Source: a virus. From it: a stretch of DNA of 64,000 bases. Shown in pieces: positions 1,006 through 6,492 of the stretch; the first letter of the stretch is position 1, and the number at the start of each line of letters is the position of its first letter. Where the stretch lies: positions 1 through 64,000 of the IMG/VR virus record IMGVR_UViG_3300049215_000527; one strand, given 5' to 3'. The translations under genes were made by a program, and so were the position numbers. The notes under the pieces were generated by a model that saw only the letters and a list, made by a program, of their open reading frames with translations, made no database searches and was not told where the DNA came from.

Positions 1006-2118
1006 ATGGATATATCCACTCCCAAAATCCGCAAAGGGCAGCGGGAACTCACCCCAGCACAATTGGCGTCGGCGCGCCTTTTTGCCCAGGAACGCATTCA
1101 AGCCATCCTCTCAACAGAGCCAGTCAATGAGTCCAGTGCCGAGGAACATCTGCGTCAAGCCTATCGTGCAGCGGGACTCGAACCGCCGACTACCATTCGT
1201 TGGTTTGACTCGCCACTCGGTTTTTGCCTTGCGCGGTCACTGCTCAATAAAGAGGTGGGGGACAGCGTGCGGGACAGCGTGCGGGACAGCGTGTGGGCCA
1301 GCGTGCGGGCCAGCGTGGGGGCCAGCGTGCGGGACAGCGTGGGGGCCAGCGTGCGGGACAGCGTGTGGGCCAGCGTGTGGGACAGCGTGCGGGCCAGCGT
1401 GGGGGCCAGCGTGGGGGCCAGCGTGCGGGCCAGCGTGGGGGCCAGCGTGGGGGCCAGCGTGCGGGACAGCGTGTGGGCCAGCGTGCGGGACAGCGTGGGG
1501 GACAGCGTGTGGGACAGCGTGTGGGCGTTATGGGACGCAGATGATTGCGCATTCCTCTGGTTCTTCCATACGGCGTTTCGGGAGAATGCCTTTATCCATT
1601 TCGCGCAGATGAATGAAATGATTCACGGTTATTTTCTGGGACGCAATGAGGCGTGGTTAGTGCGCCATGCCACGCGCCTTGAACGTGATGAGCGTGGGCG
1701 ACTCCATAGCGATAATGGGATGGCGATCCAGTACGCTGACGGCTGGGGCTTCTACGCCTGGCACGGCGTGCGTGTACCAGAACCAATCATCCTGCGGCCC
1801 GAAACCCTCACAAAAACGGACTGGTTGGCTGAGTCAAATCTTGAGGTGCGTCGCGTCATGCAAGAGCGACTGAGTCCCGATCAGTTCGTGGCCCTTGTCG
1901 GAGCCACTGCGATCCACGCCGATGAGTGCGGTACGTTGGTCGAAGTCGATCTCGGTGACGATCCGGAGCGTGTCGCGCGCTATGTCCATGTCCATGATAG
2001 CTCGACGCCCCGCGAATACTACCTGCGGGTACCACCGGACACAGAGCGCGCGCGGCAGGGTATCGCGTGGGGATTCGATATCCCTGAGGCAGAGTATTGC
2101 CCAGTGCAGGAAGCATGA
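1006..2118 (+). CDS. DUF6745-like protein with a hypervariable tetrapeptide repeat
   Basis: A 370-aa protein. The N-terminal 80 residues hold a helical segment (LTPAQLASARLFAQERIQAI). Residues 84-171 are 22 tandem tetrapeptides of the form V-[G/R/W]-[A/D]-S. The C-terminal half (RGRLHSDNGMAIQYADGWG ... RVPPDTERARQGIAWGFDIP) matches what I know of DUF6745. The function of the family is not known to me. The repeat region would form an extended, regular surface. It sits directly after its usual small partner at 625-936, separated by a hairpin. Confidence 0.7.
   Translation: MDISTPKIRKGQRELTPAQLASARLFAQERIQAILSTEPVNESSAEEHLRQAYRAAGLEPPTTIRWFDSPLGFCLARSLLNKEVGDSVRDSVRDSVWASVRASVGASVRDSVGASVRDSVWASVWDSVRASVGASVGASVRASVGASVGASVRDSVWASVRDSVGDSVWDSVWALWDADDCAFLWFFHTAFRENAFIHFAQMNEMIHGYFLGRNEAWLVRHATRLERDERGRLHSDNGMAIQYADGWGFYAWHGVRVPEPIILRPETLTKTDWLAESNLEVRRVMQERLSPDQFVALVGATAIHADECGTLVEVDLGDDPERVARYVHVHDSSTPREYYLRVPPDTERARQGIAWGFDIPEAEYCPVQEA
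1255..1518 (+). repeat. 22 x 12-bp coding minisatellite (GTG-NGG-GMC-AGC)
   Basis: Twenty-two uninterrupted 12-bp units. Variation is confined to two bases per unit: the first base of codon 2 (C, T or G, giving Arg, Trp or Gly) and the second base of codon 3 (A or C, giving Asp or Ala). GTG and AGC are constant. The frame is never broken. Confidence 0.95.
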
Positions 2119-5673: not shown

Positions 5674-6492
5674 ATGCGGATGCCCTGGTTGCGGCTTCAC
5701 TCTGAAGCACGCTGCGACCCGAAACTAGAGCTATTGTCGGATGCCCAATTTCGGGTATGGTTCCGCTTACTCTGCTTTGCCAACGATCAGCCAGAGCGTG
5801 GCACCATCGCTTTTCGTTCGATGAAGCTCTTAGCGGTGCAAGTCTCCAAAGGTGATGAGGCGCTGCTTGCTGAGGTCTTGGCCCTCTTAGTCGAACTCAA
5901 TATCATCGACGTGGACGATGAAGATGAATTGGTAGCGTTCGTCCACTGGACGGAGCGCCAGTACGATAAGCCATCCGACGCCCCTCAAGCCACGCGCGAA
6001 CGCAAAGCGCGTCAGCGTGACAAGAGCGATCCGCCACCAACAGATCCACTTACTTCCACCCCGTCACGCGATGTCACGCCGATGTCACGCGATGTCACGC
6101 GATGTCACGGGCAAGAGGAGAAGAGAGAAGAGGAGAAAGAGGAGACGACGAACGCGCGCGCAAGCGCCTCACTGGTACCCGATGTGTCTACATCGTCGTC
6201 ATCCCTTTCCGAGCAATTACAGCGTGAACTCAATATTTACACCCACGCTGTTGATGCAATCGTGGCGGAATATGCCCCACAGCTTGAGGCAATCGGAAAA
6301 ACCCTCTTGGGAGAAGCTGCTAAGTGGCGACAAGACAACCCAACAGGTCGTTTAAAGAATTTTGAAAATTGGCTGAGAATTGCGCTCAAGCCAGATAGTT
6401 TTTCCGCGCAAGCACCACCCCGCGCAAGCCCCACCGCGCCACCTTCCAAGAAATACCGGACCCTTGAAGAAACCCGTAAGAAATCGGCATAG
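5674..6492 (+). CDS. Replisome organiser / replication initiator-like protein
   Basis: A 272-aa protein. The N-terminal 115 residues (WLRLHSEARCDPKLELLSDA ... VWFRLLCFANDQPERG ... FVHWTERQYDKPSD) match the winged-helix domain of phage replisome organisers. A low-complexity linker (SRDVTPMSRDVT, EEKREEEKEETTN) follows, then a helical C-terminal part (AAKWRQDNPTGRLKNFENW) resembling DnaD-like or primosome-recruiting tails. It probably opens or marks the origin and recruits the helicase encoded ten bases downstream. The linker DNA carries repeats that look like origin iterons. Confidence 0.75.
   Translation: MRMPWLRLHSEARCDPKLELLSDAQFRVWFRLLCFANDQPERGTIAFRSMKLLAVQVSKGDEALLAEVLALLVELNIIDVDDEDELVAFVHWTERQYDKPSDAPQATRERKARQRDKSDPPPTDPLTSTPSRDVTPMSRDVTRCHGQEEKREEEKEETTNARASASLVPDVSTSSSSLSEQLQRELNIYTHAVDAIVAEYAPQLEAIGKTLLGEAAKWRQDNPTGRLKNFENWLRIALKPDSFSAQAPPRASPTAPPSKKYRTLEETRKKSA
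6063..6109. repeat. Phased iterons in the replication initiator gene, candidate origin
   Basis: GATGTCACG occurs at 6070, 6081, 6091 and 6101, with a partial copy (GTCACGCGAT) at 6063. Spacing is 11, 10 and 10 bp, about one DNA turn, so a protein would meet every copy on one face. Placement inside the initiator gene parallels lambda ori in gene O. Origin function is inference. Confidence 0.5.

Follow-up and report, generated by a model that had tools for sequence, protein, structure and literature searches.

The window, the whole 64-kb stretch of DNA analysed here, is part of an 85-kb virus record with an integrase, a terminase, two DNA methyltransferases and a helicase of the DnaB type. A search of this record for RecT and ERF recombinases gave no match. 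In the non-structural region of the phage record, an open reading frame on the + strand (positions 1006–2118) encodes a 370-aa protein with an N-terminal helical domain, a tandem array (1255–1518) and a C-terminal DUF6745 domain (1537–2115). By its profile match to Pfam PF20530 at residues 178–369 (E = 1.1e-32, 113.5 bits against a curated cut-off of 27), the C-terminal part of the protein is clearly a DUF6745 member. The array is in frame with this open reading frame, which ends in DUF6745 (the C-terminal 190 residues), hence the repeat is coding. Homologues of the 370-aa protein in viral contigs show 28–56% identity.

Directly upstream lies a 103-aa gene on the + strand (625–936) matching phrog_27831 (E = 1.7e-12). 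Its homologues occur about 1.6 kb or closer to many array genes, on either side, and tblastn placed one near 63 of 167 array entries, some of which duplicate one locus. Homologues of phrog_27831 were also seen near the array genes of Nocardia and Mycobacterium abscessus prophage loci. Searches of Pfam, PHROGs, NCBIfam and PADLOC assigned no function to the array, to its second scaffold (see below) or to the upstream gene, apart from DUF6745 and PHROGs of unknown function. The name DUF6745 was not found in the literature searched, and paper searches, with subscription literature outside their scope, returned nothing describing the array repeat. Elsewhere in the window a short tandem repeat, GTCACGCGAT, is present in 4.6 copies at 6063–6109, within an open reading frame at 5674–6492.

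The array consists of 22 consecutive perfect 12-bp units on the + strand, each GTG NGG GMC AGC and encoding V-[W/R/G]-[A/D]-S. The initial annotation placed all variation at base 1 of codon 2 and base 2 of codon 3 (sites 4 and 8 of the unit), and this is exact in 22 of 22 units, the ten remaining columns being invariant. Site 4 is G in eight units, C in nine and T in five; site 8 is A in ten and C in 12. Neighbouring units accumulate 27 differences at these two sites and zero at any other. All six of the proposed combinations of Gly, Arg or Trp with Ala or Asp are present (RD, n = 6; GA, n = 6; WA, n = 3; RA, n = 3; GD, n = 2; WD, n = 2), with Arg encoded by CGG only and never AGG, and the first base of codon 2 taking three of the four bases. 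Tandem Repeats Finder (TRF) extended the array to 1255–1526 (22.7 copies, score 376), ending inside a partial, degenerate unit 23 (1519–1530, + strand; GTG TGG GCG TTA, or V-W-A-L) at the junction to the C-terminal domain. An exact two-unit pattern matched 21 times in the 85-kb record, every time within the array and on the + strand, and did not match a reversed control of the same record.

Related arrays occur in many other viral contigs. An exact three-unit pattern recovered 42 matching stretches, and a loose pattern together with protein-homology scans yielded many more; among the matches listed for the loose pattern in viral and genome contigs, many were unrelated simple repeats. The resulting set comprised 136 non-redundant arrays, each with 8 or more units, for a total of 2,769 units (median 17 per array, maximum 59); nearly all of these arrays came from viral contigs. 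Sites 4 and 8 were the two most variable of the 12 columns in 130 of the 136, where chance would give this result in 1/66 of cases for each array, hence the two-site pattern is far from chance.

Two scaffolds carry the arrays. One is that of the DUF6745 proteins; the other is a family whose N-terminal domain is of the “MCxxFS...” type or a different one, and whose C-terminal domain has the motif “...LWxxGLVPSFDGKxWRLHGG...”. Profile comparison of the N- and C-terminal parts detected zero homology between the two. The plan is kept in diverged arrays: the units read L-[W/R/G]-[G/D]-Q in L289, a deposited prophage of M. abscessus, V-[W/R/G/E]-[A/D]-Q in L290, a replicon of Nocardia farcinica, and L-[W/R/G/E]-S-S in a phage from a spring. 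In some arrays the W/R/G position also takes K, E, M, Q or V. A DUF6745 member of Streptomyces fungicidicus (L294) has a non-repetitive region instead of the array; cellular DUF6745 genes (Streptomyces, Deinococcus), in this locus and in plasmid matches (H11, H13), adjoin STM4015 or STM4011 family genes. Among approximately 1,190 evenly drawn cellular genomes from three phyla, no such array was found except in the Prevotella metagenome-assembled genome used as a centre; three other matches were single cases with identical units and without two-site variation. Two near-identical viral loci of 4.8 kb (L444 and L450; IMG samples 3300009163 and 3300009155) contain many separate degenerate arrays of GTA-based units in less than 5 kb, and apparently carry a multi-array gene or gene cluster.

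Within arrays, mean heterozygosity was 0.61 at site 4 and 0.45 at site 8, with at most 0.06 at the remaining ten sites and approximately 0.03 at silent sites. Between arrays the picture is reversed, with Fst of 0.93–0.95 at sites 3, 9 and 10–12 (the Val third base, the Ala/Asp third base and the Ser codon) and of 0.15 and 0.16 at sites 4 and 8. Across the first set of arrays (n = 136), 24 background codon combinations occurred, with Ser encoded by AGC, TCG, TCC, TCT, TCA or AGT, hence by both Ser boxes. This contrast was repeated in three subsets of arrays, found with the strict pattern, through protein homology and with a pattern that constrained only a minority of silent sites. The encoded alphabet was preserved: 122 of 136 arrays contained all of W, R and G, and 126 contained both A and D, with W, R and G each making up about one third of units and a dispersion slightly above binomial. 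The initial annotation had reasoned that drift would also alter third positions. These positions do change, but only from one array to another and hardly inside one, which suggests that something specific acts on sites 4 and 8.

Silent sites that are uniform within arrays and divergent between them are a feature of concerted evolution. Judged from these sequence comparisons, the array behaves as a coding minisatellite under concerted evolution in which two sites, unusually, escape homogenisation in nearly every array. Spider silk repeats are described (PMC3933166, PMC9779670) as coding VNTRs with intragenic homogenisation and rapid diversification; the phage arrays are unlike silk-type VNTRs in that silent sites become uniform and two sites nonetheless remain variable in almost all arrays. 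The expansion of a single unit followed by ordinary mutation, as in a neutral minisatellite, would account for the block duplications described below. However, silent sites should then vary like sites 4 and 8, and they do not; neutral simulations also lose polymorphism, and we regard this origin as very improbable. The invariance of the 12-bp context inside any one array could instead indicate that the DNA or RNA unit is the functional object, as a binding site or structural element, with the protein reading incidental. Yet the alphabet is preserved across the 24 codon sets, and the array lies in frame within conserved domains, leaving such a role for the nucleic acid barely credible.

The arrays also retain traces of copying. 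Arg was encoded only by CGG in 33 of 124 arrays, only by AGG in 87 and by both in four, whereas pooling would predict 105 mixed arrays; Ala and Asp codons shared the same third base in 116 of 116. This exclusivity of the Arg codon suggests that states are copied from within their own array, and disfavours a mutator that inserts random bases. Use of CGG differed with the Val codon (4 of 55 GTC arrays, 21 of 48 GTG and 8 of 18 GTT); GTC-CGG would make a CCGG site, and restriction-site avoidance or phylogeny are possible explanations. Words of 4 to 6 units were repeated 3- to 8-fold above shuffled arrays (153 against 47 for 4-unit words, 23 against 2.8 for 6-unit words), hence blocks have been duplicated. 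Pooled signed linkage between sites 4 and 8 was zero (all |z| <0.6). Complete independence of the two sites, considered in the first linkage test, was dropped, given a squared linkage per array of 0.148 against 0.065 under independence, with random sign. With signed linkage nil and squared linkage raised, there appears to be no fixed coupling of residues 2 and 3, only traces of shared ancestry.

Diversity-generating retroelements are phage-borne, adenine-directed systems that vary fixed codon positions of a protein, and the array resembles their targets in being phage-borne and varying at fixed codon positions. It differs in being tandem and not adenine-directed, with limited, array-specific states. 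The reverse transcriptase family PF00078 was absent from the 85-kb record, which may be incomplete, and the exact two-unit pattern offered no template repeat on either strand of this record outside the array. By these sequence features, the array protein does not appear to qualify as a retroelement target. More broadly, a site-directed mutator, whether such a retroelement or a hot spot, could alter the two bases while the protein merely tolerates the result. This would fit the restriction of variation to two bases per unit, the nil signed linkage and the finding that both single-base differences between near-identical genomes (below) fall at sites 4 and 8. However, C and A coexist at site 4 in only four of 124 arrays, against 57% of arrays in a simulated random-base hotspot, and site 8 is almost exclusively A or C. 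Together with the evident block copying and the lack of a reverse transcriptase or second pattern copy in the record, this makes a site-directed mutator distinctly unlikely. The initial annotation invoked selection or a biased mutator at these bases; action specific to the two sites is upheld, whereas its mutator, if drawing bases at random, is disfavoured. A mutator limited to existing states, or driven by short-patch conversion, may still be the source of variation.

Closely related contigs show changes in the arrays themselves. In one pair (L436/L437), in which the 600-bp flanks on both sides are 100% identical, the single difference is at site 8 of unit 7, and in the near-identical 4.8-kb loci (L444/L450), also with 100% identical 600-bp flanks, it is at site 4 of unit 9; these are the only two single-base events seen. 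Contigs L109 and L410 (flanks 98.6–100%) have a 10-unit block in common and otherwise differ in order. Changes in unit number or blocks between close relatives were found in this pair and in L156/L371, the latter at a contig edge. Two further pairs, L067/L377 (flanks 94–95%) and L011/L019 (downstream flank 95.5%), share the same backgrounds, and in both the order aligns no better than shuffled units. Many other pairs with identical flanks keep identical arrays, hence the rate of turnover is not extreme: unit order changes fast relative to flank divergence, and not in every generation. The recombination among a few unit types suggested in the initial annotation is thus borne out among close relatives, whose arrays differ by duplicated and deleted blocks, by two single-site changes and by scrambled order, and do not share a fixed unit order.

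The contigs are mostly short-read assemblies, in which the unit order of a single contig is uncertain; some stop inside arrays, and some pairs lie at contig edges and were kept out of the main evidence. Three loci (L010, L014 and L291) carry frameshifts within the array, giving V-G-Q-R or G-P-x-x type repeats through sequencing error or decay. These features would be expected if the low-complexity repeat were an assembly or sequencing artefact, a concern already raised in the initial annotation. However, the two-site pattern recurs in more than 100 independent arrays, including the M. abscessus prophage and the N. farcinica replicon, and independent contigs agree exactly in many pairs. It is also present in records apparently from isolate genomes, as judged by their IMG numbers. 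An artefactual origin of the pattern is therefore highly improbable, though the unit order in a single contig may be wrong.

The reading we consider probable is that recombination copies and scrambles units, in concerted evolution, while selection keeps the W/R/G by A/D mixture, making the array a hypervariable coding minisatellite. Out-of-register recombination and short-patch conversion between units would spread states and homogenise everything neutral, and selection at the protein level would hold residues 2 and 3 of every tetrapeptide in several states. In the NGG box all first-base changes would be tolerated, with W, R or G as the product, and GMC codes for A or D, hence one base per site switches the residue. 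In a toy simulation with hand-chosen parameters, neutral block exchange lost the polymorphism and the random-base hotspot mixed C and A. Balancing selection on the amino-acid states with mostly short-patch conversion kept silent diversity low and diversity at sites 4 and 8 high, with C/A mixing nearly absent, matching the main statistics. The observed squared linkage, which lies between the simulated regimes, and the lack of RecT or ERF matches in the record count against the scheme. As the simulated alternatives lose polymorphism or mix C and A, concerted evolution with selection is favoured. The persistence of a two-base polymorphism in more than 100 arrays, on 24 silent backgrounds and two scaffolds, points strongly to selection for variability within a phage protein.

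Selection could instead act on composition alone, if the structure required bulky, charged and small residues in a certain ratio, in free order and without a recognition code. The near-equal thirds of W, R and G fit such a requirement, as do the near-random order and the scrambling apparently tolerated in close relatives. The right composition in a fixed order would serve equally well, however, so under a purely structural requirement fast turnover would be a side effect of repeat instability, and the extra residues (K, E, M, Q or V) used at the same position in some arrays also argue against it. We think this explanation has some plausibility, while on balance unlikely.

As the weakest step of the proposed scheme of recombination and selection, the array may serve an intracellular phage protein as an interaction surface that is modular and rapidly re-sorted; that it is a modular, variable binding surface is a guess. 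AlphaFold2 (AF2) models of both scaffolds predicted the flanking domains well (pLDDT mostly >80 for the DUF6745 domain here) and the arrays poorly. The array at 1255–1518 is modelled with low confidence (pLDDT <50), hence a binding role is conjecture. The DUF6745 domain had zero sequence matches among solved structures, and a Foldseek search of the AF2 model against the PDB returned nothing (best E = 1.8). PADLOC models of anti-phage defence gave weak matches only, the best (E = 0.004) aligned to the array, and assignment to a known defence protein was rejected on this basis.

TALE repeats are helical units of approximately 34 residues with repeat-variable di-residues, in which new specificities arise through unit recombination. 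The array resembles them in being a tandem protein repeat constant save for two adjacent residues, an analogy of design and not homology, and no TALE match to the array protein was found in Pfam or among PDB sequences. It differs in having a unit of 4 residues against about 34, and six states only. By this analogy, the arrays could be a combinatorial recognition module kept by phages on at least two unrelated scaffolds, with each tetrapeptide bearing one of six two-residue letters and units recombined within phages and perhaps between them. Every lineage would then have a unit sequence of its own, read by a host or competitor molecule. We put this forward as a doubtful but conceivable extension.

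The route to phage-protein variability suggested here looks different from that of diversity-generating retroelements. Should the array prove to be a binding code, few known modular recognition repeats would be as small, and a so far unrecognised phage–host or phage–phage conflict would come to light. The arrays also offer a clean natural system for telling apart the effects of mutation, gene conversion and selection on repeats that code for protein.
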